Assembly (NCBI GenBank): GCA_026709025.1
Contig: JAPOTT010000009.1
Span: forward strand, 1-64,000
Source: a bacterium
GTDB lineage: Bacteria > Actinomycetota > Acidimicrobiia > Acidimicrobiales > Bin134
DNA length: 64,000 nt
Direction: 5' to 3'
Part shown: piece after piece, positions 35,897-51,995 of the stretch
Numbering within the stretch: the first letter of the stretch is position 1
Layout: every line of letters starts with the position of its first letter
Program-made: the position numbers and the translations under genes
Notes under the pieces: generated by a model
What the model was told of the DNA's origin: nothing
Database searches by the model: none
What the model saw: only the letters and a program-made list of their open reading frames with translations

Positions 35897-36031
35897 ACTA
35901 GACGGTAGAACAGGATGCACAAAGCACGCCAGCCGAGTTTTAGCACAAGTAAAGTTTTAGACCGATTGTCTCACTTATGGTGTAGAGTGGATATTGCTAT
36001 CGGCCGTTCTGTGGCCCTTTATCAAACTTTA

Positions 36032-36047
36032 GGCAACTTTGGTTGCT
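36032..36047 (+). promoter_or_regulatory. Conserved dyad before the toxin-like gene (copy 1)
   Basis: GGCAAC-TTTG-GTTGCT: a dyad with GCAAC/GTTGC arms, ending ten bases before ATG 36057 and replacing any visible Shine-Dalgarno. The same element in perfect form is found at the identical distance before the homologous gene at 44071. Likely an operator for the HTH antitoxin or a translation-control hairpin. Confidence 0.55.
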
Positions 36048-36056
36048 TCTGGCACA

Positions 36057-36308
36057 ATGGACGACTATCTCAGCAGGGCGGAAATTGCGGAGAGCGCCCG
36101 CAAGCATGGTGTGACCGATGAAGATATCAGGCACGCCCTGCGGTATCACTGGATTACTCTCAGTGCCGATGATCTTGCAGTTGTGATGCATGTTGGGCCT
36201 TCTATGACTTCTCAACCCTTGGAGATAGGTGTGCTGCACAAAAGCCATGTGAGGGTTATCATTCATGCTATGCCTGCAAGACGCAGGTTTTTGAACAAAA
36301 GGAGATGA
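36057..36308 (+). CDS. Small toxin-like protein of a putative toxin-antitoxin pair
   Basis: 83 residues. Start at ATG 36057 (MDDYLSRAEIAESARKHG), with the alternative TTG 36039 rejected because it lies inside the dyad element. Ends VIIHAMPARRRFLNKRR. The layout (SARKHGVTDEDIRHAL..., HVGPSM, VIIHAMPxRxxFL) resembles small proteins that occur in actinobacteria ahead of an HTH antitoxin and are annotated as putative toxins. It overlaps the HTH gene by four bases (ATGA). A homologous N-terminus is fused to a second HTH protein at 44071. Toxicity is inferred from context only. Confidence 0.6.
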   Translation: MDDYLSRAEIAESARKHGVTDEDIRHALRYHWITLSADDLAVVMHVGPSMTSQPLEIGVLHKSHVRVIIHAMPARRRFLNKRR

Positions 36309-36595
36309 CTGTGGAAGAGTTCAGCGAAGAGTATTTGGTTGAGAAGCTAGCCGCGTTGGAGAAGTGGGCTGATGAGGTTAAACCAGAGGAACTGAAGCCA
36401 GCTCCTTTGGAGTCTTATGCAGCTACCGCCGCTTGGGTCAATCAGTTTGATGAGGTAAATGAGGCTTTGGCGGGGGCGGTTGGTGATGCTCTTGCGCGTG
36501 GGCTTAGTTGGGTGCAGGTGGCTGATTTGCTGGGGGTGTCTGAGGAAGCAGCCCGTAAGAAGTACGAGAGCCGAGTCCTAGCGCAAACAGCCTAG
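36305..36595 (+). CDS. HTH protein, putative antitoxin/regulator
   Basis: 96 residues. The N-terminus is acidic-helical (EEYLVEKLAALEKWADEVKPEELKP split over residues 9-33), and the C-terminus contains a helix-turn-helix, LSWVQVADLLGVSEEAARKKYE. Start ATG 36305 with AGGAG directly before and a four-base overlap with the toxin-like gene. Likely binds DNA at the dyad upstream (36032-36047) and represses the pair; it may also influence drmD, which starts 40 bases downstream. Strongly similar to residues 50-144 of the fused protein at 44071. Confidence 0.65.
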   Translation: MTVEEFSEEYLVEKLAALEKWADEVKPEELKPAPLESYAATAAWVNQFDEVNEALAGAVGDALARGLSWVQVADLLGVSEEAARKKYESRVLAQTA

Positions 36596-36635: not shown

Positions 36636-39434
36636 ATGGTGGGATTAAAACAGGATTGGCGGGTTGGCATCCCTGAGCAGGGAAATCTGGTGCGGGTTCG
36701 CGACCGGTTTTGGGTGGTCGAATCGGTGATACCATCGCGCCCGCTGCCCACCAGCACCAACGGCACTAGCTCAGACACTCATCACGCGGTGCGGGTGGTG
36801 CCGGTGGACGATAAGGGGAGCCCCGATCCGCTTACCGTGTTCTGGGAACTTGAGCCTGGCACCGAAATACGCCCTCAAGCATCCCTGCCCGATCTTGCCG
36901 ACGGGCTCGACGACAGCGAAACGTTCAGCGCTTTCTTAGATGCCGTCCGCTGGGGTGCGGTGGCTGCGGCCGACCCATCCGCGTTTCAGGCACCTTTTAG
37001 GGCTGGCATCGACATCAAGGACTATCAGCTTCTGCCACTGCTCAAAGCCCTAGCCATGCCTCGAGTGAGCATGCTTATCGCCGATGATGTCGGCCTCGGC
37101 AAAACCATCGAGGCCGGGCTTATCGCTGAAGAGCTGGTGCTACGCGGCCTGGTCCGCAAGATCATGGTGGTGTGTCCGCCCAGCCTATGCGGAAAGTGGC
37201 AGCGGGAGATGCGAGACAAGTTCGGGCTCGCCTTCGAGGTGGTCAACAGGGAATATGTGGCTAAGCTGCGGCGGGAGCGGGGCGTAGGCACTAACCCATT
37301 CCGCTCCCACCCCCGGCTGATCGTGTCGTTGGAATGGCTGAAGCTGGAGCCACAGCTTAGGCGGCTAAACGAATTCCTGCCGCCTGATCCGAACGTCTAT
37401 CCCCGAGCATTTGATCTCCTCATTGTAGACGAAGCCCACTTGATCGCTCCCGCAGCATTGGGCAATTACGCCAAGCCATCGCTGCGAACTCAGGCTCTGC
37501 GGAAGTTAGCCCCGCATTTTGAGCATCGGCTCTTCCTCACCGCCACTCCCCATAACGGCTACCGTGAGTCGTTCGAGTCGCTGATGGAGACTCTCGACCC
37601 CAATCGCTTTGCCAACGGGGTGCCGGTGACAAACCAAGACCGAGACGCGGTGATGGTACGGCGGCTGAAGTCGCATCTACGCCACCTGCTGCCTGACAGC
37701 CGGGCCGACTTTCCCACTCGGCGAATCCATGCCATCGAGGTGGCCTTCGACAACGCTGAGCGGGAGATGTTCGAGCTTCTAGACCAGTATGCCGCCGCCC
37801 GCCGTTCCCACGCCTCAACACCCGCAGAAAAAGCTGCGGCCCGCTTCATCACCCTGCTGCTGAAAAAGCGCCTCCTCTCGTCTCCGGCGGCTTTCAAGCA
37901 CACGCTCGACCGCCACATCGAGACTCTAGACAGGGCCTCCTCGCACATCGCCACAGTTCATGCCGTAGAGGAAGCCGCTAGCGTGCTCGATGCCGAGGTT
38001 GACGATGACGACGCGCTCGACGAGTTAGAACAGCAAGCCTTGGCCGTAGTGGCCACTGCTTTCCCCGATACCAAGACCAGCGATCAAGAACTGCTGGCCC
38101 GACTACGATCCCGGACACTGCCGTATAGTTTGCCGAGGCAGATACTAGACCAGTTGAAGCAGCATGCCGATCACAACTGGCGTCGTCCCGATGCCAAGAC
38201 CCAGTCATTGCTTGACTGGATTGCCGAGATTTGCTTTCCGGAGGGCAGGTGGAACAACGAGCGGGTTATCGTCTTCACCGAGTACAGGGCCACGCTCAAC
38301 TACCTCCGTGAGATGCTGAGCAGCCTGCACCCCAACCGCCTGTTTATGAGCGACCGGGTTGAGGTGTTCCACGGCGGCACCAGCCAAGACGAGCGGGACC
38401 GGATCATCCGGGAGTTCAACTACGATCCAAAGGTCACCAAGGCGCGAGTACTGCTGGCCACTGATGCCGCATCCGAAGGCATCGACCTGCATGGGGCCTG
38501 CTACCGGCTGGTACATGTCGAAGTTCCGTTCAACCCCAACCGCATGGAGCAGCGCAACGGCCGGGTAGACCGCCACGGCCAGAAATCCCCCCATGTGGAC
38601 ATCTTCCACTTCACATCTCCCGCCGAAGAGAAAGACTCCATCGGTTACGATCACGCTTTCTTGCTGCGGGTTGCTCAGAAGGTGGACGAGATACGCGATG
38701 ATTTGGGTACGGTCTCATCGGTTTTGGCCGAGCGTATCGAAGCACGGATGCTACGTGACGGCGACGACAGTTTGGATTTGGAGTCCACCCTGGCTGCCCG
38801 TAGGGACAAGGCCCAAGTTGATCTAGCCAAGCTCAAGCGGGATTTCACTGAGCAGCTCAGTGATGTTCAACACCGCTACCGTGACAGCGCTAATGAGCTT
38901 AATCTGTCACCATCCAGCGTGGAACGGGCTGTTCGGGTGGGGTTGCGGATTTCCAATCAGCCTCAACCCATCCCCAAGGTCGTGCAACGACCGCAAGGCC
39001 CGGACACGGTGTTCAAGATTCCCGATCTATCCGGCACCTGGCCAGAAACGCTGGTGGGCCTTCATGACGAGGTGGCCGACAAGCGCCTATCGGCAACCTT
39101 TGATGCTCAAGTGGCCTCGGGTGACGACAACATGGCTTACCTCCACTTGGGTCATCCGCTGGTTGCCCGGTGCTTGCGCATCCTGCGGGCCCAGGTATGG
39201 GGAGCATCTGTAGACCGCACCATCCACCGGGCCGCCATCCGCTATGGCGAGGTGGATGAGCCCATTGCGATTGGCCACGCCCGCATTGTAGTTAACGGTT
39301 CCGATGGTTCAACCTTGGATGAAGTGATTGAGCCTGCCGCAGTTCGGGTGGGCGGACGCCAAGGTCGCCTCAATGTGGGTGAAACCCAAGCGGCACTGGC
39401 AGCGGCCCGCAGCAACTCCCCCCCCCGTATGTAG
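36636..39434 (+). CDS. drmD: DISARM DrmD-like SNF2 helicase, N-terminal 932 residues (frame broken at a C9 tract)
   Basis: SNF2/SWI2-type helicase with all core motifs: motif I DDVGLGKTIEAG (about residue 147), DEAH box near 264, motif III TATPHNG near 302, and motif VI QRNGRVDRHGQK near 638. DrmD is the class 1 DISARM helicase. The frame ends at 39432-39434 right after a run of nine C (39418-39426). Adding one C would continue in frame into the ORF at 39464-39835, giving one protein of about 1066 residues. As written, the C-terminal 130 residues are lost. The gene uses noticeably more GC-rich codons than the flanking loci, consistent with acquisition by transfer. Start ATG 36636, weak ribosome site. 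Confidence 0.82.
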   Translation: MVGLKQDWRVGIPEQGNLVRVRDRFWVVESVIPSRPLPTSTNGTSSDTHHAVRVVPVDDKGSPDPLTVFWELEPGTEIRPQASLPDLADGLDDSETFSAFLDAVRWGAVAAADPSAFQAPFRAGIDIKDYQLLPLLKALAMPRVSMLIADDVGLGKTIEAGLIAEELVLRGLVRKIMVVCPPSLCGKWQREMRDKFGLAFEVVNREYVAKLRRERGVGTNPFRSHPRLIVSLEWLKLEPQLRRLNEFLPPDPNVYPRAFDLLIVDEAHLIAPAALGNYAKPSLRTQALRKLAPHFEHRLFLTATPHNGYRESFESLMETLDPNRFANGVPVTNQDRDAVMVRRLKSHLRHLLPDSRADFPTRRIHAIEVAFDNAEREMFELLDQYAAARRSHASTPAEKAAARFITLLLKKRLLSSPAAFKHTLDRHIETLDRASSHIATVHAVEEAASVLDAEVDDDDALDELEQQALAVVATAFPDTKTSDQELLARLRSRTLPYSLPRQILDQLKQHADHNWRRPDAKTQSLLDWIAEICFPEGRWNNERVIVFTEYRATLNYLREMLSSLHPNRLFMSDRVEVFHGGTSQDERDRIIREFNYDPKVTKARVLLATDAASEGIDLHGACYRLVHVEVPFNPNRMEQRNGRVDRHGQKSPHVDIFHFTSPAEEKDSIGYDHAFLLRVAQKVDEIRDDLGTVSSVLAERIEARMLRDGDDSLDLESTLAARRDKAQVDLAKLKRDFTEQLSDVQHRYRDSANELNLSPSSVERAVRVGLRISNQPQPIPKVVQRPQGPDTVFKIPDLSGTWPETLVGLHDEVADKRLSATFDAQVASGDDNMAYLHLGHPLVARCLRILRAQVWGASVDRTIHRAAIRYGEVDEPIAIGHARIVVNGSDGSTLDEVIEPAAVRVGGRQGRLNVGETQAALAAARSNSPPRM
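39418..39426 (+). repeat. drmD: C9 homopolymer at the drmD frameshift point
   Basis: Nine consecutive C on the coding strand. C9 gives ...NSPPRM and stop; C10 gives ...NSPPPYVASKYVDQW and joins the downstream frame; C8 gives a stop after four more codons. This is the structure of a slipped-strand contingency locus, but a homopolymer sequencing error would look the same. Confidence 0.9.
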
Positions 39435-39463
39435 CCAGTAAGTACGTAGACCAGTGGCCGCGG

Positions 39464-39835
39464 GTGAGGTCTGCACTGGAACAGGCCCTTGCTGCCAGGG
39501 CAGAAGAAGTCCACGACCAGCGGGAACGGCGTCTCGACACCAAGCGCGGCCGGGAGGCTGATCGGCTCCGAAGCACGCTGACCGACCTCAAGGAGTCAAT
39601 TAGGCGCCGATTGGACGATCTTGAGTCTGGCGACAACAGCTTCCAGCTCGCTCTGTTCGATCATGAAGAGAGCGAGCGCTTCCAAGCCGACATCGCCGCG
39701 CTGCGTCGCAGGCTTGACGAGATCGACGACGACATAGATACAGAAATCAACAATCTCATGGCGCGCTACAAAGTGCGCGACATCCACTGGTTCCCGGTTG
39801 CGGTGGAGATAGTCGTGCCTTTAGGAGAGATCTAA
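39464..39835 (+). CDS. drmD: C-terminal fragment of DrmD (coiled coil), out of frame
   Basis: 123 residues from GTG 39464; the open frame extends back to within the poly-C tract. It is rich in charged helix with coiled-coil heptads (RERRLDTKRGREADRLRS, LRRRLDEIDDDIDTEINNLM) and ends WFPVAVEIVVPLGEI. In frame +1 relative to the upstream helicase ORF, so it is the expected tail of DrmD rather than a separate gene. It ends TAATG, overlapping the drmMI start by one base, with AGGAGA in its last codons, so drmMI translation is probably coupled to reading through this segment. Confidence 0.7.
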   Translation: MRSALEQALAARAEEVHDQRERRLDTKRGREADRLRSTLTDLKESIRRRLDDLESGDNSFQLALFDHEESERFQADIAALRRRLDEIDDDIDTEINNLMARYKVRDIHWFPVAVEIVVPLGEI

Positions 39836-42800
39836 TGGCCGTCTCTAGGCAGGTTGCCATCACCCATGAAGACTGGCTGAACCTCTGCGACCCCGAACAG
39901 CCCTGGTTCACCCTACCGGTGATTAAGCGGGCCTTTCCGCAGGGGTTGCACCCGGTGTCCAGCATAATCAGGGCCGAACACAAGGCCCGCTGGAACGAGG
40001 TCCACGACTCCGCCGACCGCAATGAGTACATCGAATGGCTGCTGCGAGAGGTACTGGGCTGGCGGGCTGACTACCGCGTCGGCGATCAGCTGCCCGAAGA
40101 CTTGGTTGCGGGGATTGCCGAACAGGGAGTGACCGTGGCACCAGAAGGGGCGTATTGCCCGGCACCTCCTTCGCCGGTGGGGGTCTTGAGCAACACCATC
40201 TCCGATGAGGTAGAACCAGACCCTCGAGTCTTGGTGTTCATCCTGCCTGCGGGTACCGATCCCGCCACCCGGCCTCGGGATGGCTGGTCGGCCACGTGGA
40301 TACAACGGGCCGCCCAGTGCTGCCGGCAGTTCAAGGCTCCGCTGGCCCTGGTCACCGACGGCGACTACCTCACGCTGGTCCACGCCAGCGACAACCATCC
40401 CACCGGCTGGGGCACATGGCGGGCCTCGGTGTTCGCCAACGAACTGGCGTTCTTGGATTCTTTTGCCTCAATGCTGGAAGCCCGGCGCTTCACCACCGTT
40501 GCTGACACTGACACCCCCGAATCGCTGCTCGTGGAGTCTGTGGGATCGCAGGCTGATGTTACCGATCAGCTTGGCGTACAGGTCCGACAGGCGGTGGAAC
40601 TGCTGGTGAACGCCATCTCCCGAGCCAACCTCGATCGCAACCAGAGTCTGCTGGAGGGAATCACACCCAAGCAGGTGTATGAGGCTGCGGTGACCGTGGT
40701 GATGCGCCTTGTGATCCTGCTGGTGGCCGAGGAGAAGAACCTCCTTCCGGTAGACGACGAGCAGTACCGCCAGCTATATGCAGTACACATTCTTCATGAG
40801 AGTTTAGAGCGAGAGCATAGCGAAAACCCTGAATCCATGGAGGCTCGTTGTACCGCTTGGCATTGCCTTTTGTCCACCGCTCGGGCGCTTTACACCGGCG
40901 TTCGCCACCATGAGCTGTCGCTTCCAGTCTATGGCAGCTCGTTGTTCGATCCCGACCGCTTCGGCTTTCTGGAGGGTCGGGCACATGGTCAGAGGTGGCG
41001 CGACGGCACCAGCACTCCCATTCAGGTAACCGACGCCGACATCTTGGCCATTCTCGATGCCCTGCTGGTGCTGCGGTTCCGCTCGGCAGCCGGGGCCACC
41101 GACACCCGCCGGCTCTCTTACCGCAATGTAGAGGTGGAGCAAGTAGGCCACGTCTATGAGAAGTTGCTTGACCCCAGCATTCTGGTGGCTGACGGCCCAG
41201 TGCTGGGTTGTGTGGGCAAGCAAGGTAATGAGCCAGAGATACCTTTGCGCGATCTGGAAACAGCCCAGATGGACGGGCGCGAGGCACTGCTCAAGTTCCT
41301 GACTGACAGCGGTGGCAAGAAATGCGGCTACTACACGGGCACCAAAAAGCAGGTTATCAAGATGTTGGACGATGCGGTTCCCGCGCAGCTACTGGCCGAA
41401 TTGCGAACTGCCTGCGGCGGCGACGCTGATCTGATGAAGCGGATCAAGCCGTATGCCAACCTGCTGCGGCTTGACCTTCGGTGCCGCCCGGTGGTGTTTT
41501 TGCCCGGCGCGGTGTACGTGACTGAGACCGGCAGCAACCGGGCCTCGGGCACGGCCTATACCACCAGAGAGCTAGCCGAGGAAGTGGCCAAGTACGCCCT
41601 TCAACCCCTCTGCTACTCGCCCGGCCCCCAAGATACTGCCGATGCCAATCAATGGCAGCTGCGCCCGTCTGATGAACTGCTGGCCCTCAAAGTATGCGAC
41701 CCGGCGGTGGGCTCAGGGGCCATCCTCGTGGCCGCTTGCCGCTATCTGGCCGACCGGGTGATCCAGGCTTGGATTGCCGAAGGCAACCTTCGAGCTCCCG
41801 AATTGGCCACCGCCGCCGACGATCCCAACTCTTTGCAAGGCAAGACGGACGCCTTGCGGCTGGTGGCCGAGAGATGCTGCTACGGCGTTGACCGCAACCC
41901 CATGACGGTAGAAATGGCCAAGCTCTCAATGTGGCTCACCACCATGGCCAAAGACCGCCCGTTCACCTTTCTGGATCACGCCATCAAATCGGGTGACAGC
42001 CTCTTGGGCATCTGGGATTTGGACCAGCTCCGCTGGCTTCATATCGACCCCGCCGCCGGCCGCCAGAGGGACCGCGCTTTTGACTGGATGGTTGGCGATC
42101 GCGATGTGCTGGAATTGCTGCAAGAGCGGTTGGACGAGGCCGCGTTGCTGCGAATGGAACTGCAAAGCCAGTCCACCGACTCAATCGGCGATGTGGACCG
42201 CAAGGCCGACCAGCATGCCCGCAGCGAGCAACTGCTCCACAGCCTGGCCGCTGCCGCCGACCTTGTTGCGGGAGCGGCTCTTGCCTCAGCCCAAGAGCAC
42301 AACCTAGCCGACGCGCTGAACCAGATCGTCGAGGCCGACCTGCCCGTGCTGCAAGACGTGCTGACCGCGCTGGACACCGCCGAAGAGCACACTGCGCTGG
42401 AAGCCGCCCGATACAGGGTGACGGCGCGGCTCAACGAAGGCCGCCCCGAGGGTGCCCTGGCCCGACAGCCTCTACACTGGCCCATCGCCTTCCCCGAGGT
42501 GTTCGTGGACGGCGGCAAGTTTGATGCCATGATCGGCAATCCACCCTTCATCGGTGGCCAGCGTCTGTCGGGTGCGTCTGGCGGTGACTATCGAGAGTTC
42601 TTGGTGCAGTGGATCGCACAAGGCGCTAAGGGCTCGGCCGATTTGGTGACCTACTTCTTCCTCTATGCCGCCAAGCAAACTCGGTCGCTGGGCTATCTGG
42701 CCACCAACACCATCGCCCAGGGCGATACCAGCGAAGTTGGTTTGGCTCAGCTGATCGACCACGGATGGACCATTCACCGAGCGGTGTCGTCGACTCCTTG

Positions 42801-43968
42801 GCCGGGCCATGCATCGTTGGAAATCGCCAAGCTCTGGATGTCGTCAACGGGCTGGCATGGGCCGAAGCATCTGGACGACCGTTGGGTTGCCGGGATAGAT
42901 GAGATGCTGTACCCCATAAGCCGGTCTAACTGGCGTAAGCAACCCCTGGCCGCTAACAAGGACCAATCATTTCAAGGATCAATCGTGCTCGGGACGGGAT
43001 TCACAATAAGCCCTGAAGAAGCACAAGCGCTTATTCAGAAAGATCCGCGCAATGAAGAGGTTCTGTTCCCATATCTCAATGGTCAAGATCTGAATCAACA
43101 CCCCGCTCATGCTGCTTCCCGCTGGGTAATAAACTTCTTCGACTGGTCTGAATCTCACGCTCGAAGTTATTCGGATTGTTTTGCGATAGTTGACGAAAAT
43201 GTACGACCTGAGCGGATGTTTAAGAAAGGCAAGCATTACGAGGCAGCCCGTCAATTTTGGTGGCAATATCTAGCTAAGAGAAAGGGATTATACAGCTCTA
43301 TCTCAGATCTAGACCGAGTTCTTATCATAGCTCGAGTCAGCAGCACAGTCATCCCAGTTTTTGTTCCAAACCGTCAAGTGTTCTCCGATGCAACTGTCGT
43401 CTTCGCTTACGACGACTTGTTTCACCTTGGCTTGCTTTCCAGCGGGTTCAATTTTCGCTGGGTTGTCAGGCACACATCGACTCTTGGGGCAGGAACCCGC
43501 TATACCCCCACCGATGTCTTCGAGACCTTCCCTCAACCAGACCACTCAGATGCCGTAACTGAAGTAGCCGAGGCCCTTGACAACCACCGTCGGCCACTAA
43601 TGGTTGCCGAACAAATTGGGCTGACCTCGCTTTATAACCGAGTCCACGATGTCGCCGACCGCAGCCCAGCCATTGAAGAGATGCGCCGCCTGCACTGTAA
43701 TCTTGATTTCGCGGTGCGTGATGCCTACGGCTGGCACGACATCGAGCTTGATCACGGGTTTTACGATGTTCGAGGTGCGGGCATCCGCTACACCTTCGCT
43801 CCTGAGGCTGCGGACGAAATCTTAGAGCGCTTGCTGGAGTTGAACCGCGACCGCTACCAAGCTGAAATCAAAGCGGGCCTCCACAGCGAAGTCAAGAAAA
43901 AGAACACCACCCCACTTGGTGGTCTATTCCAAGAGATCAACGATCAGGGCCAAGCGGCTAGCGCGTAA
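39835..43968 (+). CDS. drmMI: DISARM DrmMI-like N6-adenine DNA methyltransferase
   Basis: 1377 residues. AdoMet motif I is CDPAVGSGAILVAA (about residue 620) and catalytic motif IV is IGNPPFIGG (about 901): gamma-class, N6-adenine type, like Eco57I/PglX enzymes. Between them lies MAKLSMWLTTMAKDRPFTFLDHAIKSG in two parts, typical of the class. The C-terminal third (from about 930) resembles a target-recognition region. In class 1 DISARM it marks host DNA. Start ATG 39835 with AGGAGA six bases upstream. The rare-codon-rich, lower-GC stretch around 42.9-43.5 kb falls in the recognition region, where recombination is common. Confidence 0.85.
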   Translation: MAVSRQVAITHEDWLNLCDPEQPWFTLPVIKRAFPQGLHPVSSIIRAEHKARWNEVHDSADRNEYIEWLLREVLGWRADYRVGDQLPEDLVAGIAEQGVTVAPEGAYCPAPPSPVGVLSNTISDEVEPDPRVLVFILPAGTDPATRPRDGWSATWIQRAAQCCRQFKAPLALVTDGDYLTLVHASDNHPTGWGTWRASVFANELAFLDSFASMLEARRFTTVADTDTPESLLVESVGSQADVTDQLGVQVRQAVELLVNAISRANLDRNQSLLEGITPKQVYEAAVTVVMRLVILLVAEEKNLLPVDDEQYRQLYAVHILHESLEREHSENPESMEARCTAWHCLLSTARALYTGVRHHELSLPVYGSSLFDPDRFGFLEGRAHGQRWRDGTSTPIQVTDADILAILDALLVLRFRSAAGATDTRRLSYRNVEVEQVGHVYEKLLDPSILVADGPVLGCVGKQGNEPEIPLRDLETAQMDGREALLKFLTDSGGKKCGYYTGTKKQVIKMLDDAVPAQLLAELRTACGGDADLMKRIKPYANLLRLDLRCRPVVFLPGAVYVTETGSNRASGTAYTTRELAEEVAKYALQPLCYSPGPQDTADANQWQLRPSDELLALKVCDPAVGSGAILVAACRYLADRVIQAWIAEGNLRAPELATAADDPNSLQGKTDALRLVAERCCYGVDRNPMTVEMAKLSMWLTTMAKDRPFTFLDHAIKSGDSLLGIWDLDQLRWLHIDPAAGRQRDRAFDWMVGDRDVLELLQERLDEAALLRMELQSQSTDSIGDVDRKADQHARSEQLLHSLAAAADLVAGAALASAQEHNLADALNQIVEADLPVLQDVLTALDTAEEHTALEAARYRVTARLNEGRPEGALARQPLHWPIAFPEVFVDGGKFDAMIGNPPFIGGQRLSGASGGDYREFLVQWIAQGAKGSADLVTYFFLYAAKQTRSLGYLATNTIAQGDTSEVGLAQLIDHGWTIHRAVSSTPWPGHASLEIAKLWMSSTGWHGPKHLDDRWVAGIDEMLYPISRSNWRKQPLAANKDQSFQGSIVLGTGFTISPEEAQALIQKDPRNEEVLFPYLNGQDLNQHPAHAASRWVINFFDWSESHARSYSDCFAIVDENVRPERMFKKGKHYEAARQFWWQYLAKRKGLYSSISDLDRVLIIARVSSTVIPVFVPNRQVFSDATVVFAYDDLFHLGLLSSGFNFRWVVRHTSTLGAGTRYTPTDVFETFPQPDHSDAVTEVAEALDNHRRPLMVAEQIGLTSLYNRVHDVADRSPAIEEMRRLHCNLDFAVRDAYGWHDIELDHGFYDVRGAGIRYTFAPEAADEILERLLELNRDRYQAEIKAGLHSEVKKKNTTPLGGLFQEINDQGQAASA

Positions 43969-44045
43969 GCAGGGATACTAACTGTCACACCCTGTACCTA
44001 AAGTAAACGCGGTTATCGGTCGTCCACCGACCCCTCCTAATCTCT

Positions 44046-44061
44046 GGCAACGCTGGTTGCC
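44046..44061 (+). promoter_or_regulatory. Conserved dyad before the fused toxin/antitoxin-like gene (copy 2)
   Basis: GGCAAC-GCTG-GTTGCC, a perfect 6-bp dyad with a four-base spacer, ending ten bases before ATG 44071. Same element, spacing and position as at 36032-36047. Confidence 0.6.
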
Positions 44062-44070
44062 TAAAGCGCA

Positions 44071-44505
44071 ATGGACGAGCACCTTGAAAGAGCAGCAATC
44101 ACGCCGAGCGCCTGCAAACATGGTATTGCAGACGCAGATATACGTCATGCTTTGAAACACTATTGGGCTTTGCACTACACCAAAGACCCTGCTGTCACGA
44201 TGTATATTGGTCCTTCTATGAGCAAATACAGCGAAGAGTTCTTGGCAGAGAAGCTGGCAGCGTTTGAGAAATGGGCAGATGAGGTCAAACCTGAGGAACT
44301 TAAGCCTCTTCCGTTCGAGGACATGGGCTACATCGCCAAGTGGATAAATCAGTTTGACCATGTTAACGAGGCCATGGCTGAAGCCATTGGCGATGCGCTC
44401 TCGAGAGGCTTCACATGGTCGCAGATTGGTGACTTGCTCGGAGTTTCCGAACAGGCCGCACGCGACAAATACAGCTCCTATATCCCTGCTCAGATTCTCT
44501 CATAG
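44071..44505 (+). CDS. In-frame fusion of a toxin-like N-terminus to an HTH antitoxin-like protein
   Basis: 144 residues. Residues 1-50 (MDEHLERAAITPSACKHG ... YIGPSM) match the N-terminal half of the 36057 protein; residues 51-144 match the whole 36305 HTH protein (SEEFLAEKLAAFEKWADEV, FTWSQIGDLLGVSEQAARDKY). The toxin's C-terminal half, including its IHAMPARRRF end, is absent. The joint falls at ATGA, where the antitoxin start would be, so an internal start at ATG 44218 could still make the antitoxin alone. Placed between drmMI and drmA, it is well placed to regulate drmA-drmB. Whether the fusion is a degraded module or a recruited regulator is open. Confidence 0.7.
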   Translation: MDEHLERAAITPSACKHGIADADIRHALKHYWALHYTKDPAVTMYIGPSMSKYSEEFLAEKLAAFEKWADEVKPEELKPLPFEDMGYIAKWINQFDHVNEAMAEAIGDALSRGFTWSQIGDLLGVSEQAARDKYSSYIPAQILS

Positions 44506-44541: not shown

Positions 44542-44573
44542 GCTGTCACAGGGTGGTAGTAACCTGTGACAGC
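44542..44573 (+). promoter_or_regulatory. 11-bp perfect inverted repeat overlapping the drmA start
   Basis: GCTGTCACAGG (44542-44552) and CCTGTGACAGC (44563-44573) flank a ten-base spacer. The right arm contains the GTG start of drmA (44566). As DNA it is an operator-like site; as RNA it would hide the GTG in a stable stem. A CTGTCACA half-site also occurs near 43982, before the fusion gene. The adjacent HTH fusion protein is a candidate ligand. Confidence 0.65.
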
Positions 44574-47500
44574 AATACTTATGTCAACAATTCCTACGGT
44601 CAGCAACACCGCTTTACCTGATTGGGCTCAACAGCCAGCAGCCATTCGTAATGAGCTGGTGCGGCGGGTTAGCGCCGATCTGCTCGGCCCGCTCGACGGC
44701 GAGCACGAGGTGATCCGTGGTTATCAACGTGATGATGGCACTTGGACACAACCAGGGCGAGTAAATGATCGCTACTTGGTGGGGAAGTTAGCCCCAGTTG
44801 GAACTGTAGTCCGCGACCCAGAACGCACCGACGATCCCGGTACCGGCGACGAAGACCCAGCCCAGGGCAGCCACGACGGGCAGGTGGCGCAGAGGGTAAT
44901 GGCCCGCTCGTCGGTGGGCCTCACTGCGGTGGTGTCAGCAAGCACTGCTCAACTGTTAGCCCGCTGCCGGTGGGGGCAGTACACCCGCCAAGTCGAAGCC
45001 CATGAAGACGGCACTACCGCCAGGGTTTGGCAGCGGGAACCAATCGACCTTGAGGTCTCGATCTCCCTGCAAGTTCCTGAACAAGAAGATGCTATCGGTC
45101 CGTTACCGGTACAGGAAGCTGGAGTGGTGCTGCGAGGCCGTGTGGCATCGGCTGCGGGCGGGGAGCTGCTGATCGTCACTGTGTTTTTGTGCAACGAGCA
45201 GGAACCCGTCCTTATCAACAAAGACGAGCGCTGGTTGTTTCAAGCCAGCCTTGATCTCACCGCCCCCGACGGCGAGGCTGTGTTTCTGGGCAGAGAAGCG
45301 CTCCATGCCGCTTCAACTGTCCCTGAGTCTGAACGCAAGGAAACCGCCCAACTCGACATGAACTATCGCCACGAGGTGGAACTGGCCGTGGGTCACGGAA
45401 TCGGCGTGAACTGGGACAGCACCCTTGGTACACGCCGGGGTACCCGCGTAGGAACTGCGGTGTTGCCGCGGTACGAGGTTGGCCGCACCGAAGCCCCTGG
45501 CGTGGCTGGAACACCCCAACTCTCCGGGCTGGTAACCGACATGAGCGTGCTTGCCGAATTGGCAGTGGATGACCTGACTAGCGCCCTTGCCCCGCTGGCA
45601 GACGGCTACCGGGCCTGGCTGGAAGACGAGATCAACCACGCCGAGGGGCTGGATGATCATCGAGAGGCCGCCGAAGCAGCGCTGGCTGAAGCGAGGAACG
45701 TTGCTGATGCCATTCAAGACGGCATCACACTGCTGCAAGAGAACCCCGATGCCTTAGAAGCATTTCGATTTGCCAATCAGGCTATGTCGCGACAGCGAGT
45801 CCATACCGTGGCCGTCGGTGAGCGGCGCAACAAACCCGATTTGTCGTTGCGGGAGGCGCTTATTCAAGCGGACATTCCTGCAAACCGCTCGTGGCGACCC
45901 TTCCAGCTTGCGTTCATCTTGTTGTGCCTGCCATCGCTTACCGACCCTGCCCACCCTGAGCGTACTGGTGACACCGCGCTGGCCGACCTACTGTTTTTCC
46001 CAACCGGTGGCGGCAAGACCGAGGCGTATCTGGGATTGGTGGCCTACACCCTGGCCATGCGCCGGCTCCAGGGGGTAGTGGGCGACGGGGAAGATGCAGT
46101 AACCGGACGCGACGGCGTGGCTGTGATCATGCGCTACACGCTGCGGCTGCTCACTGCTCAGCAGTTTCAGCGAGCAGCCACGCTGATTTGTGCTGCTGAG
46201 CTCATCCGTCAACATCGAGCTGTATCTGACAGCAGATATGCAGGCGTGCCGTTCCGCTTGGGTATGTGGGTGGGCGGCGGGGTGACCCCCAATCAAGATG
46301 TTGAAGCCAAGGAATGGGTAGAGGCCCAGCGCAGCCGAAGCCGGGGGTTCAGCGGTGCTAGCACACCGCTCCAGCTCACCGAGTGCCCATGGTGCGGCTA
46401 CGCGCTTAACGGTGGCCGAGACTGCCGCTATGACGAGCCCCATCAGCGCTTTCTGGTTTTTTGTGGCGATCCTGAATGCTCGTTTACCGCCAAGCAAGCG
46501 CCGGGTGAGGGCATTCCAGTGGTGACCGTGGACTCCCAGGTGTACCGGCTACTGCCCGCGTTTGTGATCGCCACCATTGACAAATTCGCTCAGCTGCCTT
46601 GGAACGGTGCCCTAGCTACTTTGTTTGGCCGGGTTGACCAATGGTGCGAACGCCACGGCTATCGTAACCCTGATCTAGACCAGCGTCACCGGAGTCACTG
46701 GCAGGAAAGCAACAAGCACACCGCCCGTGGGGATCTGCCCGCAGCAGCCACGCTCGCCGTTTTGCCTCGGCTGCGACCTCCTGATTTGATCCTCCAAGAC
46801 GAGATGCACCTGGTAACCGGCCCTTTGGGCACGATGGCAGGGTTGTACGAAGCCGCCATCGACCGGCTGGCAACATGGACCTATGCGGGGCGAGAGGTCC
46901 GCCCCAAAGTGGTGGCATCAACTGCCACCGTGCGCCGTGCCGAACAGCAGGCTTGGGCGCTGTTCTGGCGGAAGCTGCGGGTGTTCCCACCCCCAGTGTT
47001 GGATGCCCGCCGGTCGTTCTTTGCTGAACAGATCGACCCCACCGATGAGGTGCCGGGACGGCTTTATCTCGGCATAAGCGCCCATGGAGAGCGGCTCAAA
47101 CAGGTGGAGCTGCGGGTGTTCGCCTCGCTCATGGCCGCAGCTCAAGCCATGTATGAGGAGTTGGGTGATGAGGGTGCCATGGTAGACCCTTGGATGACCA
47201 CCGTGGGCTACTTCAACGCAGTGCGAGAGTTAGCCGGAATGCGCCGTCTGGCTGAAGATTATCTTCAGTCAAAGCTGCGGCGTGCTCACTTCACCACCGG
47301 CCTAGCCGACCGCAAGCAAATTAACTTGGATGAGTTGACCTCCCGGGTCTCTTCGGAAGACATCAAGCAGGTACTCCGCCGCCTGTTCAACACATTTGAC
47401 CCCGCACAGGAGGACGAGGACCGCAACCAGCGCCCCTTAGACCTGCTACTAGCCACGAACATGGTATCGGTTGGGGTGGATGTGCCCCGGCTGGGTTCCA

Positions 47501-48246
47501 TGGTGGTGGTGGGCCAGCCCAAGGCCACCGCCGAGTACATCCAGGCCACCTCTCGGGTTGGCCGTAGCTCAGGTGGGCCTGGTCTGGTTATCACCTTGTA
47601 CAACTGGGCCCGACCGCGGGATCTGTCTCACTATGAGACCTTCGCCTATTACCACGCCACCTTCTACCGCCAGGTGGAGCCGCTGTCGGTCACGCCGTTC
47701 TCTGAACGGGCTTTGGATAAAGGGCTCACTGCTGTGCTGGTGGCCGCAATCCGCCACTGCGACACGGTGTGGAACCCTAACGACACCGCCCGCTCGCTTG
47801 AAAAAGACGACCCTCGTATCAGCGCCCACTTGGCCGCGTTGTCGGAGCGGGCCGAGGCCGTGACCGCCAACCCCACAGCAGGCCAGTTGTTGAGGAACAT
47901 GGCCCAACATCGCCTCGATGACTGGGAACGGGAAGCCTCGCTGCGACCCTCCCTCTCCTATGACGCTCGTCAGCGAGACGATGTGGCGTTGTTGAAGCGA
48001 CCCGAAACGGGAAGTTGGACGGTGCGGACCTGTCCGAACTCGCTACGCGACACTGAGTCTCAGATCAACCTGCAAATTGAAACTGTAGATCCCACTTACG
48101 AGTCGAAAAGTCAGCCCAAGATTATTCTCGGCCAACCTAAACCAGATGCCGACGAGCCCAGAGTTACCATGGTTGAAGATGATGAGGTGGATGAGTCGAT
48201 AGATGCGGCGCAGCACTTCGACGAATTTGGCAAGGCTTCCCCGTGA
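44566..48246 (+). CDS. drmA: DISARM DrmA-like helicase
   Basis: 1226 residues. Helicase motif I is FPTGGGKTEAYLG (about residue 478), the DExH-type box is LILQDEMHLVTGPLG (about 742), and the C-terminal helicase domain has IQATSRVGRS (about 990), ending in an acidic tail. This long, divergent superfamily 2 layout with DEMHL is that of DrmA, the core DISARM helicase thought to act with DrmB on incoming DNA. A Cys pair region (ECPWCGYAL, FCGDPECSF near 605-645) may bind zinc. GTG 44566 is used (GGGTGG upstream); ATG 44581 is an alternative that would lie just after the inverted repeat. Confidence 0.85.
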   Translation: MTAILMSTIPTVSNTALPDWAQQPAAIRNELVRRVSADLLGPLDGEHEVIRGYQRDDGTWTQPGRVNDRYLVGKLAPVGTVVRDPERTDDPGTGDEDPAQGSHDGQVAQRVMARSSVGLTAVVSASTAQLLARCRWGQYTRQVEAHEDGTTARVWQREPIDLEVSISLQVPEQEDAIGPLPVQEAGVVLRGRVASAAGGELLIVTVFLCNEQEPVLINKDERWLFQASLDLTAPDGEAVFLGREALHAASTVPESERKETAQLDMNYRHEVELAVGHGIGVNWDSTLGTRRGTRVGTAVLPRYEVGRTEAPGVAGTPQLSGLVTDMSVLAELAVDDLTSALAPLADGYRAWLEDEINHAEGLDDHREAAEAALAEARNVADAIQDGITLLQENPDALEAFRFANQAMSRQRVHTVAVGERRNKPDLSLREALIQADIPANRSWRPFQLAFILLCLPSLTDPAHPERTGDTALADLLFFPTGGGKTEAYLGLVAYTLAMRRLQGVVGDGEDAVTGRDGVAVIMRYTLRLLTAQQFQRAATLICAAELIRQHRAVSDSRYAGVPFRLGMWVGGGVTPNQDVEAKEWVEAQRSRSRGFSGASTPLQLTECPWCGYALNGGRDCRYDEPHQRFLVFCGDPECSFTAKQAPGEGIPVVTVDSQVYRLLPAFVIATIDKFAQLPWNGALATLFGRVDQWCERHGYRNPDLDQRHRSHWQESNKHTARGDLPAAATLAVLPRLRPPDLILQDEMHLVTGPLGTMAGLYEAAIDRLATWTYAGREVRPKVVASTATVRRAEQQAWALFWRKLRVFPPPVLDARRSFFAEQIDPTDEVPGRLYLGISAHGERLKQVELRVFASLMAAAQAMYEELGDEGAMVDPWMTTVGYFNAVRELAGMRRLAEDYLQSKLRRAHFTTGLADRKQINLDELTSRVSSEDIKQVLRRLFNTFDPAQEDEDRNQRPLDLLLATNMVSVGVDVPRLGSMVVVGQPKATAEYIQATSRVGRSSGGPGLVITLYNWARPRDLSHYETFAYYHATFYRQVEPLSVTPFSERALDKGLTAVLVAAIRHCDTVWNPNDTARSLEKDDPRISAHLAALSERAEAVTANPTAGQLLRNMAQHRLDDWEREASLRPSLSYDARQRDDVALLKRPETGSWTVRTCPNSLRDTESQINLQIETVDPTYESKSQPKIILGQPKPDADEPRVTMVEDDEVDESIDAAQHFDEFGKASP

Positions 48247-50126
48247 GCAGAAGTAGGCCAACATCAGGGCATGCACCAGAACCTACACGGATCGGTGGCT
48301 TGCGGCCTTCCCAAATGATTCACACCTTCGGCCCCGGCGCCGTGGTGGATCTTCCCTCTATGTCGGTGGTGGTGGGCGGAATCAGTGACTGGAACATCAA
48401 TGACACTGCCCTCATCGCCGAAGCTAGGTTGCTTCACAACGTCAGATCTTTGCCGTGTTGCGCCCGGGTGAGTGAGTTGCGGAGCCCACCGTGGATGGAA
48501 GAGTCGCCAAATCCTCACCAGCATTGGGCTTATGTTGGAGTACCGGTTTTCCCATTTCCTCGCTGGATGAGGTGCACAGGGTGCAGCCGGCTCGCCCCGG
48601 TGGACTATAAAGAGTTCACCTTGGAGGTGAATCGCTTCCGGCCTGACCGCTCGTATTGGTATCACGACCGGTGCCATGGCCGCAAACCCCAGGTCGTGCC
48701 CACTCGGTTCATGGTGGCCTGTGCCAATGGGCACCTCGACGACTTCCCCTGGATTGAGTACGTCCACCGGGGCGGCCCCTGCCCTGGGGGCAGCGCGATA
48801 TTGGAACTGCGAGAGGCCGGGCAAGCCAACCGGGCTGCCGATGTGCGGGTGATCTGCAAAACCTGTGGTGCCCAGCGAATGGCCCATGACGCTTTCGGAG
48901 ATCAGGCATGGCAGCACTTGCCCCAATGCCGCGGCCGCCACCCACATCTTCAGCGTTTTGACGAGGGTTGCCAGGAGTCGCCTCGGGCGCTGTTGCTAGG
49001 CGCGTCCAATACGTGGTTCTCTATTTCGCGCTCCGCGCTCACCATTCCTACCGGTGCCAATGGAGTTGACGAAATAGACCAGAAGGTCGCCGAGCGCTGG
49101 GATGATCTGCTTGATATAGAAGACCGTGTGATCCTCGACTATGTAATCAAACGCTTGCAGCGAGGCCAAGGCGAACAACAGCGCCGCTGGCTGTTGGATT
49201 ATGACTCAGATGAGATATGGGCAACCATCGAGCGACACCGCCAACAAACATCGGCAGAGTTAGAGCAAGGGGAGGAACACACCGATTTACGGGGGCCGGA
49301 ATGGCGGGCCTTTGCTGCTCCAGAGTCGTTGGAGACAGAAGACTTCAAAGTGCAGATACTCGATGTCCCCGCAGGGTTTGCCGGGCTACTAGATCAGCCC
49401 ATAGCGGTGGATCGGTTGCGAGAGGTTGTTGCGCTGTGCGGGTTCACTCGTATTGACGGCCCCGATGACGTTGGTAGGGCAGATCGAATTGCACCACTTT
49501 GGAGTGAGAACCCCACATGGCTTCCATCTGCGGAAACTCGGGGGGAAGGTTTGCTGATCCGGTTATCTGAAGCACAGGTGCAAGCATGGGAATCTGGCTA
49601 CGAGGCTAGCGATCGATACTTGAAACTCCTAGACGCTCACCATGTCTGGCGGGCTCGTCGGGGGTTGGACCCCAATCAATCCGAGCCCCGATCTCGGTTC
49701 CTGTTGCTTCACTCTCTGGCCCATCTGTTGATCCACCAGGTGGCTTTGGATTGCGGCTATTCCACCGCATCCATACGTGAACGGCTCTATAGCAGGACAC
49801 CCGACGAGGGAGACCCAATGGCCGGGGTGCTGTTGTATACCGCATCGCCCGATAGCGAGGGCACCCTGGGTGGGCTGGTAGCTCTGGTCGACCCTGAACG
49901 CCTTGCTGCCACTTTGCGTGATGCCCTCAACCGGGCAAAATTGTGTTCTACCGATCCCATCTGTGCCGACCACCGGGCCGAAGGAACCAACGACACCCTC
50001 CACCACGCGGCCTGCCACGCCTGTATGTTCGTACCCGAAACATCCTGCGAACACGGCAACCGTTACCTTGACCGCGCCACCATCGTCCCCACCCTAAGCC
50101 CCCCAAACCTCGCCTACTTCGCCTAG
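48243..50126 (+). CDS. drmB: DISARM DrmB-like DUF1998 protein
   Basis: 627 residues. N-terminal GGLRPSQMIHTFGPGAVVDLPS, a zinc-type MRCTGCSRLAPVD (about residue 108), CANGHLDDFPW (about 160), CKTCGAQRMAHDAF, then the DUF1998 core LLLHSLAHLLIHQVALDCGYSTASIRERLY split over two segments near 485-515, and CHACMFVPETSCEHGNRYLDR with further Cys/His at the end. This is the DrmB pattern: it forms a complex with DrmA. GTG start overlaps the drmA stop by four bases. In canonical DISARM the phospholipase-D gene drmC follows; here it does not. Confidence 0.87.
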   Translation: MSRSRPTSGHAPEPTRIGGLRPSQMIHTFGPGAVVDLPSMSVVVGGISDWNINDTALIAEARLLHNVRSLPCCARVSELRSPPWMEESPNPHQHWAYVGVPVFPFPRWMRCTGCSRLAPVDYKEFTLEVNRFRPDRSYWYHDRCHGRKPQVVPTRFMVACANGHLDDFPWIEYVHRGGPCPGGSAILELREAGQANRAADVRVICKTCGAQRMAHDAFGDQAWQHLPQCRGRHPHLQRFDEGCQESPRALLLGASNTWFSISRSALTIPTGANGVDEIDQKVAERWDDLLDIEDRVILDYVIKRLQRGQGEQQRRWLLDYDSDEIWATIERHRQQTSAELEQGEEHTDLRGPEWRAFAAPESLETEDFKVQILDVPAGFAGLLDQPIAVDRLREVVALCGFTRIDGPDDVGRADRIAPLWSENPTWLPSAETRGEGLLIRLSEAQVQAWESGYEASDRYLKLLDAHHVWRARRGLDPNQSEPRSRFLLLHSLAHLLIHQVALDCGYSTASIRERLYSRTPDEGDPMAGVLLYTASPDSEGTLGGLVALVDPERLAATLRDALNRAKLCSTDPICADHRAEGTNDTLHHAACHACMFVPETSCEHGNRYLDRATIVPTLSPPNLAYFA

Positions 50127-50360: not shown

Positions 50361-50501
50361 TTATGGATCAGATGGGTATGCATCCCTCATCCCGACGGGC
50401 TGCCTGACCTCTTTCTTGACCGCAGCTTGGGGCGGATACAGGTTCCAGCATTGCTGCGCCAGGCCAGTCTCCGACTCTCTTTGCTAGTTGCTTTTGTATA
50501 A
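50361..50501 (+). pseudogene. Possible remnant of a PIN-like toxin gene
   Basis: In the frame after TAG 50358 the sequence reads PDLFLDRSLGRIQVPALLRQ followed by ASLRLS. This resembles the first strand-helix of PIN-like toxin domains (FxDRSLGR-xxVPxxLRxAGLR). The similarity stops near 50475, close to the end of the opposing ATPase gene, so only about 30 residues survive. No start codon is in frame after the stop. Low confidence because the fragment is short. Confidence 0.35.
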
Positions 50502-51995
50502 ACGGTGTAGGTCTATGAGTTCTACGTCGGTGCGAGTTTTAGCGGCATTGATTAGTTTGGTGGTGAAACCTTGAGCGGAGAACAAAAGGCGCTTGGTGTT
50601 GGGCGACAGCGTGACTCCGGAGCGGCTAGCTAGCAGGCCGGTGAGCTGGTCGAGTCGTTCAAGCGCGTTGGTGTCTAGCTTGTATGTCTTTGCCTCGCCT
50701 ATCAACTGGACGGTTTTGGTCTTACCTTTTTTGGGGTCACGTTGGAGCGCCACTATGTCTAGCTCGAAGCTTTGGCGTTGGGTACGGTCGTGTATTTGCA
50801 CAGAGGCTGATGGTTCAGCCGGGCCGCCCAGAGTCACTTCCGAGGCGTAGCGATCTACCCAAAGGCGGCATAGTGCCTCGAAATGGGGGCCTACGATCTG
50901 AGATCGGTAGGTTGCCTCCGCGTTAGCCCACACCTCCAACGTTTGGCGGTCTTCTAGTTGGGCGCGGTGTCGCCGATTGATCAGATGGTGGAAGCGCACA
51001 ATCGGATCTGCCACTCTATAAACCGGTCGCTTAGCGGTTAACAGATCCTCATGTCGGACAACGAAACCGGCTGTGGTCATTACCCCTAGGTGGTGACTGA
51101 TGTCGTTGGAGGTCTTGCCCAGAGCCTCGGCAATTTTTGCCGGTGATGTCCGTCCGTCGGCTACTGCATTGAGCAGGGAATAATAGGTGGCCTCGTCGGT
51201 AACCCGAGGGTCTTCTCTCAGTAGATAGTCGTCTTCACGAAATAGAACATGGGACGGGTTCAGCAACGTAGCTGCTAGCCATTCTGGCAGATCGTCCACG
51301 CTGCTAGGAACCCCGGCATCTGCAGTTAGGTCTTTGTATCCCGCGACACCGCCAACAATGGTGTCTAACAAGAATGCTGTGTCTGGGTTTTGGATATTCC
51401 AATAGCCTTTGGCTTGGCGGTAGTCGAATGGGGACAGCGGCATGTCTAGAATCGCCCGGCCTCGCAAGGGCGATGTGCCGCTCAATAGCTGCGTCATCAC
51501 GGACATAGCCGAACCGCACAGAATAATGCTCACGGGTGCTGTCCACTTGTCGGCCAGTCCGCCAGCTGCTGTCTCGTCTATAACAGCTTGGACCGCAGAA
51601 TCCAGCTCTGGGCTGGTTTGCTGTAGGTAGGGGTACTCGTCTAACACCAAGAGCTGGGGTTGATGCCCGCTTGTCCCCAACTTATGTACTGTCTGTTGCA
51701 GGGCATCGCTCCAGTCTCGGAACGGCTGAGGCGGTGCCCACCGAAGTTGGCGGCTGAGGCTGTTGGTAAACCGGTCTAGGGCAGGTCTGCGGTCTTCCCG
51801 TAAAGCTAAGTGGTACACCCCACCAATTGACTCAACTAGGCGGCGTAACAAATAGCTTTTGCCGTAGCGGCGTCGACCATAAAGGATGCCCAATCGAAGC
51901 CCTTGGCGTGGCGCTAGCACAAAACGCGACAGGTCGTCCCATTCAACTTCCCTGTTGTAGAGGCTTGCAGGTTTTGTGAAGCTTCTCTCGGTCAT
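50484..51995 (-). CDS. AAA ATPase with winged-helix and DUF234-like C-terminal domain
   Basis: 503 residues. Walker A variant YGRRRYGKSYLLRRL, Walker B LLVLDEYPYL, sensor-like IILCGSAMSVM, then a winged-helix segment (GRTSPAKIAEALGKTSNDISHHLGVM) and a C-terminal nuclease-like region with FELDIVALQRD and QLIGEAKTYK (D...E-x-K). This is the archaeal-type ATPase/DUF234 organisation. Role unknown; such genes are found as solitary accessory loci. ATG start without a Shine-Dalgarno, 15 bases from an array of three palindromes, which its own winged-helix domain may bind. Right boundary gene of the defence island. Confidence 0.85.
   Translation of the reverse strand: MTERSFTKPASLYNREVEWDDLSRFVLAPRQGLRLGILYGRRRYGKSYLLRRLVESIGGVYHLALREDRRPALDRFTNSLSRQLRWAPPQPFRDWSDALQQTVHKLGTSGHQPQLLVLDEYPYLQQTSPELDSAVQAVIDETAAGGLADKWTAPVSIILCGSAMSVMTQLLSGTSPLRGRAILDMPLSPFDYRQAKGYWNIQNPDTAFLLDTIVGGVAGYKDLTADAGVPSSVDDLPEWLAATLLNPSHVLFREDDYLLREDPRVTDEATYYSLLNAVADGRTSPAKIAEALGKTSNDISHHLGVMTTAGFVVRHEDLLTAKRPVYRVADPIVRFHHLINRRHRAQLEDRQTLEVWANAEATYRSQIVGPHFEALCRLWVDRYASEVTLGGPAEPSASVQIHDRTQRQSFELDIVALQRDPKKGKTKTVQLIGEAKTYKLDTNALERLDQLTGLLASRSGVTLSPNTKRLLFSAQGFTTKLINAAKTRTDVELIDLHRLYKSN

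Follow-up and report, generated by a model that had tools for sequence, protein, structure and literature searches.

RelI, the antitoxin of the RelS–RelI toxin–antitoxin (TA) system, is an HTH, ClpC2-like protein, and BrnA, the antitoxin of BrnT–BrnA, is a ribbon-helix-helix protein. CreTA-type modules are RNA-based TA systems that guard CRISPR-Cas. The RelS–RelI pair (Rv2663-Rv2664, PDB 9SDC) was described in M. tuberculosis in June 2026, with RelS, a BrnT-like RNase that cleaves the anti-SD region of 16S rRNA, restrained by the small HTH antitoxin (PMC13284704). The RelS residues K9, H10 and H64 are essential or almost essential for toxicity, H64A being severely impaired, while residues 2-24 of RelI are required for neutralisation, and RelI D8/D12 contact RelS K9, H10, H64 and R69 (PMC13284704). 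For M. tuberculosis RelSI, no inverted repeats and no DNA-binding evidence were found, the RelI HTH was argued to be occupied by RelS, and both the regulation of the operon and the stress that it answers were left open (PMC13284704).

The window, the whole stretch of 64,000 nucleotides analysed here (contig JAPOTT010000009.1, an Acidimicrobiales assembly), contains two modules of this kind, an intact pair (module 1) before drmD and, about 8 kb downstream inside a DISARM operon, a reading frame in which the start of the toxin is joined to the antitoxin. In common with RelS–RelI, both halves of the fusion are homologous to the described proteins, and the toxin comes first. Apart from their position, the modules differ from the M. 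tuberculosis pair in the truncation of RelS at residue 50 and its fusion to RelI at 44071, and in an upstream dyad and a PafBC-type promoter, neither of which was reported for M. tuberculosis.

Family assignment and the intact module

Profile searches against PDB matched the toxin to 9sdc_C (E=2.7e-10) and the antitoxin to RelI, 9sdc_A (E=9.5e-10), and by these matches both modules are assigned to the RelS–RelI family (Rv2663-Rv2664, PDB 9SDC). In Pfam, NCBIfam and PADLOC, the toxin could not be assigned to a family, and the antitoxin had only weak HTH matches. BrnT (3u97) was the top, weak fold match, as the BrnT-like fold of RelS has it (PMC13284704), but the toxin sequence matches RelS and not the Pfam BrnT model. 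Residue mapping placed RelS K9/H10/H64 at K16/H17/H70 of the toxin, with H70 invariant across the aligned genus toxins, and RelI D8/D12 at E19/D23 of the antitoxin starting at 36305, and at E66/D70 of the fusion. Alignments A4 and A5, which wrongly placed toxins on the antitoxin HTH, were excluded from prediction.

Module 1 consists of a relS-like toxin gene (36057..36308, + strand, profile match to 9sdc_C) and a relI-like antitoxin gene (36305..36595, + strand, profile match to 9sdc_A), overlapping at an ATGA. All mapped residues (K16, H17, H70, E19, D23) are present, so that the RelS-homologous toxin has the equivalents of K9, H10 and H64, and the adjacent antitoxin, encoded after it, has the acidic-x-W-x-D helix and the HTH of RelI. 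By analogy with RelS–RelI, the toxin is predicted to be a 16S rRNA anti-SD RNase neutralised by the 36305 antitoxin. Directly preceding module 1 is a gene for an AAA_14/DUF4143 ATPase (34549-35838, minus strand).

Anatomy and origin of the fusion

The fusion ORF (44071..44505, + strand, 144 aa), taken from the ORF list and from profile matches to the RelS and RelI families, aligned with the 36057 protein over residues 1-51 (53% identity), and with the 36305 protein over residues 49-141 (65% identity), bearing out the original prediction that the N-terminal part of a toxin continues in frame into an HTH antitoxin. A search of its own genome with the fusion recovered 36057 (E=2.7e-12) and 36305 (E=4.8e-37), and no relatives beyond these matches. 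The RelS stub (residues 1-50, 44071..44220, + strand) keeps K16/H17 (= RelS K9/H10), and carries C15 where 35 of 38 toxins carry the near-invariant R15. All RelS sequence past residue 50 is gone, including the region of H70 (= RelS H64), and with it a complete RelS with its catalytic residues; since the H64 equivalent is absent, the fusion is probably non-toxic, as had been proposed from the loss of the C-terminal half of the toxin. The RelI part (44218..44505, + strand) is complete, with the neutralising helix E66-K67-W68-A69-D70, containing the retained E66 and D70, and the HTH WSQIGDLLGVSEQAARDKY.

The joint coincides with an ATGAGC (44218..44223, + strand), a direct repeat across which approximately 100 bp were lost. 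This joint corresponds to the RelI start codon on the antitoxin side, and to an internal ATGAGC of the toxin gene (codons 50-51) on the other. The ATGA gene overlap of the intact pair lies approximately 100 bp beyond the toxin-side joint and is removed in the fusion; an earlier placement of the joint at this overlap thus holds for the antitoxin side, but not for the toxin side. Since the closest intact relative (L033) has GATGAGC at both joint positions, a single loss of approximately 100 bp between short direct repeats accounts for both the fusion and its reading frame, the repeat putting toxin codon M50 on the antitoxin start ATG, and hence joining the halves in frame. Judged from these sequences, the fusion derives from an intact pair that lost approximately 100 bp between two short copies of ATGAGC.

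AlphaFold gave pLDDT below 50 for fusion residues 1-53, a part covered by no homologous rows, and the models, which were of low confidence overall (pLDDT 63 and 53) and lend weak support, suggest that the RelS stub is probably an unfolded passenger. CapRel-type fused TA proteins (PMC13423816) and a single-polypeptide type II system (PMC4826407) also combine toxin and antitoxin within one chain, but with an active toxin, whereas the toxin here is truncated and predicted dead.

The antitoxins of module 1 and the fusion are 64-65% identical, and in the antitoxin tree the fusion groups with G017 and G018 (support 98/95), with module 1 outside them (99/96). This placement makes module 1 an older paralogue, and not a duplicate made together with drmD-drmMI. 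The proposal that the two copies had been duplicated with the DISARM genes was dropped, since the antitoxins split before the fusion clade diverged from G018/G017, and since relatives carry the pair between drmMI and drmA, with none before drmD in L033, the sole relative in which that position could be checked.

The DISARM site in related genomes

The locus encodes drmD (36636..39434, + strand, frame broken near its 3' end), with its C-terminal portion lying in a different frame (39464..39835, + strand, NF038317, profile positions 905-1018), drmMI (39835..43968, + strand), drmA (44566..48246, + strand), and drmB (48243..50126, + strand), the gene content and order of DISARM class 1, from which it differs by the RelS–RelI module between drmMI and drmA. 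The frame break of drmD (39400-39464) shifts the last approximately 120 residues, while drmD is uninterrupted in L036 and L174; the site contains a run of C, and the break may reflect either a genuine mutation or an error in the sequence. In the part of the genes that was scanned, the gene after drmB (50484-51995, minus strand) encodes an ATPase matching the PADLOC candidate PDC-S27, and is not drmC.

An intact RelS–RelI pair was found between drmMI and drmA in four related genomes (L041/G013, L036/G009, L033+L173/G018 and L034/G002). The G018 site spans two contigs, with the end of C14 (L033) and the start of C2 sharing 55 identical bases, and drmA following on C2. In a fifth DISARM locus (L174, G005), drmMI is followed directly by drmA, with no pair. 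In L033, L034 and L036, large internal DISARM deletions join the ends of drmD/drmMI and of drmA/drmB, leaving the RelS–RelI pair intact, and two different drmA/drmB deletions stop at about the same drmB codon (539-550). Deletions of DISARM genes around an intact pair are the pattern expected of an addictive module, and fit a putative guard or selfish role of the intact pair at DISARM. CreTA-type modules are likewise TA pairs embedded in a defence locus, which they may guard, but CreTA has RNA parts and guards CRISPR-Cas, and guarding is here only a candidate role. Intact, empty and toxin-dead versions of one DISARM site make it a natural test case for the guarding of defence operons by TA modules.

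Recurrence of toxin loss

The fusion is unique among the 22 genus genomes. Across 395 class-level genomes, a profile built from three fusions returned only three uninterrupted fusions, those of the window, G121 and G208. In G121, toxin model positions 8-48 are followed by frameshifted toxin sequence and the antitoxin, and in G208 the antitoxin follows toxin model positions 12-42; since they belong to other families and have other joints, they arose independently. The original prediction was to be given up if no other genome carried a fusion and the region looked like an assembly chimera, whereas fusions are present in G121 and G208, and relatives carry the unfused orthologue in place. Three candidates were rejected as further fusions, L035 since it holds only a C-terminal toxin remnant after a PIN-like gene, and G516 and G362 since stops lie between toxin and antitoxin despite matches spanning both halves. 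Two scans of viral contigs found no relatives.

RelI is present without a working RelS in L032, L035, a second copy in L036, L037, L043 and L044, and toxin genes interrupted by frame breaks or premature stops occur in L084, L086/L141 and L089 (these could be sequencing errors), and in L177, all such counts over-representing toxin loss, as they begin from antitoxin searches. In G127, parts of both toxin and antitoxin are lost. As far as these loci tell, loss of the toxin with RelI kept is a recurrent route, and the fusion itself is of interest as one instance of losing the toxin while keeping the antitoxin. In a toxin-first pair overlapping at ATGA, some inactivating deletions will enter the antitoxin frame by chance, and the fusion calls for no special explanation.

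A candidate RelI operator

A perfect dyad, GGCAAC-GCTG-GTTGCC (44046..44061), lies 9 bp before the fusion start and is a predicted RelI operator; a similar dyad, GGCAAC-TTTG-GTTGCT (36032..36047), precedes module 1. Upstream of RelS-type toxins the dyad takes the form GTCAAC-N4-GTTGAC or GGCAAC-N4-GTTGCC, with at least 10 of 12 positions matched in 28 of 48 modules, versus 23 of 960 shuffles. Of these 28 module dyads, 26 share one spot to within 4 bases (20 exactly). The GG...CC dyads occur only with an LGVSE recognition helix (four modules: module 1, the fusion, L033 and L034), the fusion combining this helix with a 12/12 match to the GG form, and the GT...AC dyads of near-clade modules occur with LGVSK, LGVSR or LGVTR helices. 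The two arms of the dyad covary, which would be expected if a dimer read it as an operator, and a dyad sequence that follows the recognition helix suggests autoregulation by the RelI family, with the limit that the LGVSE/GG association comes from one clade, and may be a single evolutionary change. A reading of the dyad as an RNA hairpin was set aside, since outside the genus (e.g. G121) it lies upstream of the likely -10, favouring a DNA operator. With the regulation of the RelSI operon left open (PMC13284704), a dyad tracking the recognition helix offers a directly testable answer.

A second dyad, GGTCG-TCCAC-CGACC (44018..44032), was seen by eye in the fusion leader, and recurs as GGTCG-N5-CGACC or GGCC-N7-GGCC in module leaders of the genus, including positions 36002-36016 of the window.

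PafBC-type promoter motifs

TGTCAC-N10-TANNNT is one form of the PafBC motif given for M. tuberculosis (PMC8151990). Matches to the promoter motif TGTC(GG/AG/AC)-N10-TANNNT are present before the fusion (TGTCAC-N10-TAAAGT, 43983..44004, + strand) and at the start of drmA (TGTCAC-N10-TAACCT, 44544..44565, + strand, with an equivalent site in L033 (G018)/L034 (G002)), and a site with one mismatch precedes module 1 (TGTCTC-N10-TAGAGT, 35967..35988, + strand). Within the genus, the motif, allowing up to one mismatch, is present at -88 to -91 relative to the toxin start in 8 of 12 upstream regions; of the remaining four, one offers only 62 bp of upstream sequence. Outside the genus no such motif was found before the toxin start.

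The motif is short. The whole genome holds 27 exact sites versus 0 for a reversed-pattern control, and the 22 genus genomes hold 194 versus 14. Downstream genes include recA, an Lhr-type helicase and DUF222-HNH proteins, and, as defence genes besides drmA, a type III mod (L051), SspB (L062) and a McrB-like ATPase (L057). Among the DUF222-HNH genes following the motif (G000, loci L049-L075), two were checked by Pfam, and two more are alike in sequence. pafA is followed by two adjacent WYL genes, the pafBC arrangement with both pafB and pafC, the assignment being made by WYL domains and the neighbouring pafA rather than by a dedicated family model. The sites and this arrangement make DISARM and the RelSI modules candidate members of a DNA-damage regulon, and the fusion and drmA may both rise on DNA damage. 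In a limited, open-access literature search, no report of PafBC or DNA-damage control of DISARM was found. The stress answered by RelS–RelI was left open (PMC13284704), and the motif in this genus provides a testable answer. In several cases the motif lies 7 nt before ATG, which suggests leaderless transcripts.

Proposed history and function of the fusion, and alternative explanations

In the history that we favour, an ancestor of these Acidimicrobiia would have acquired a RelS–RelI module in the drmMI–drmA interval of a class-1-type DISARM. In this genome, approximately 100 bp would then have been lost between two short ATGAGC repeats located within relS and at the start codon of relI, leaving one reading frame for a dead RelS stub followed by a complete RelI. 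The deletion would have removed the stretch, next to the relS end, in which relI translation normally starts, and the in-frame joint still allows RelI to be translated from the relS start. The product is most likely still a working RelI protein, predicted to bind RelS toxin through the N-terminal helix of its RelI part, and could serve as a spare antitoxin, either backing up the intact module, which lies 8 kb upstream, or countering an incoming relative. It probably represses its own promoter and that of module 1 through the GGCAAC-N4-GTTGCC dyads, and the PafBC-type motifs would place the fusion and drmA under DNA-damage induction. Taken as a whole, a same-site pair, a repeat deletion and retained RelI function form the best explanation, which we hold to be probable with moderate confidence. 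Of the sensor-regulator role that had been suggested, the regulator part is plausible through the HTH, but a sensor role of the 50-residue stub finds no support.

The main rival is plain decay, in which a degenerating module has left the fusion as a neutral, functionless intermediate whose RelI activity, if any, is incidental. In its favour, at least six other genus modules retain RelI with RelS broken or missing, G127 has lost parts of both genes, the near-invariant R15 is C in the fusion, and the drmD of this locus is frame-broken. Against it, the 95-residue RelI part is open and conserved, with 83% identity to L033 and a tree branch (0.062 versus 0.066 for its sister) that is not accelerated, the promoter motif and dyad of the fusion are both intact, and the in-frame joint keeps RelI translated, so that we regard decay as unlikely, albeit worth serious consideration. 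Synonymous sites are saturated in the Ka/Ks comparison, which therefore neither dates the fusion nor measures selection on the stub, and the fusion could be a recent allele that is being lost.

That the stub is itself a working part, the N-terminal half of RelS modulating RelI (e.g. by occupying its helix in cis) to give a conditional regulator or phage sensor resembling fused toxin–antitoxin sensors, appears improbable. The independent fusions of G121 (8-48) and G208 (12-42) keep a similar N-terminal piece, and K16/H17, whose counterparts RelI contacts in the RelS–RelI structure (PMC13284704), are kept, but the joints differ among fusions, which have no linker in common, the beta-sheet core is missing, AlphaFold pLDDT is below 50 over residues 1-53 where homologous rows are lacking, and deletions in a toxin-first pair leave short upstream pieces. 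An assembly artefact joining two strain variants is more improbable still, to the point of being hardly credible: the genome is a fragmented MAG, and related MAGs show apparent strain-variant breaks at the locus, but a 6-bp repeat explains the joint while being too short to mislead an assembler, and the flanks are unbroken in a 95-kb contig.

Beyond the retained RelI function that we favour for the fusion, the regulatory pattern of its relatives may matter more than the fusion itself. RelI-family proteins as autorepressors whose operator specificity changes together with the recognition helix, and a toxin-less RelI kept as a regulator, with PafBC tying DISARM and the TA modules to DNA damage, form a broader proposal that we consider rather doubtful at present.

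A PIN-like gene lies just upstream of a lone RelI in L035 (9600-10360) and L036 (6300-7110), with RelS reduced to a C-terminal remnant, and toxin exchange is possible at these loci. Homologues of the PDC-S27-type ATPase are found near the RelI remnants of the same two loci.
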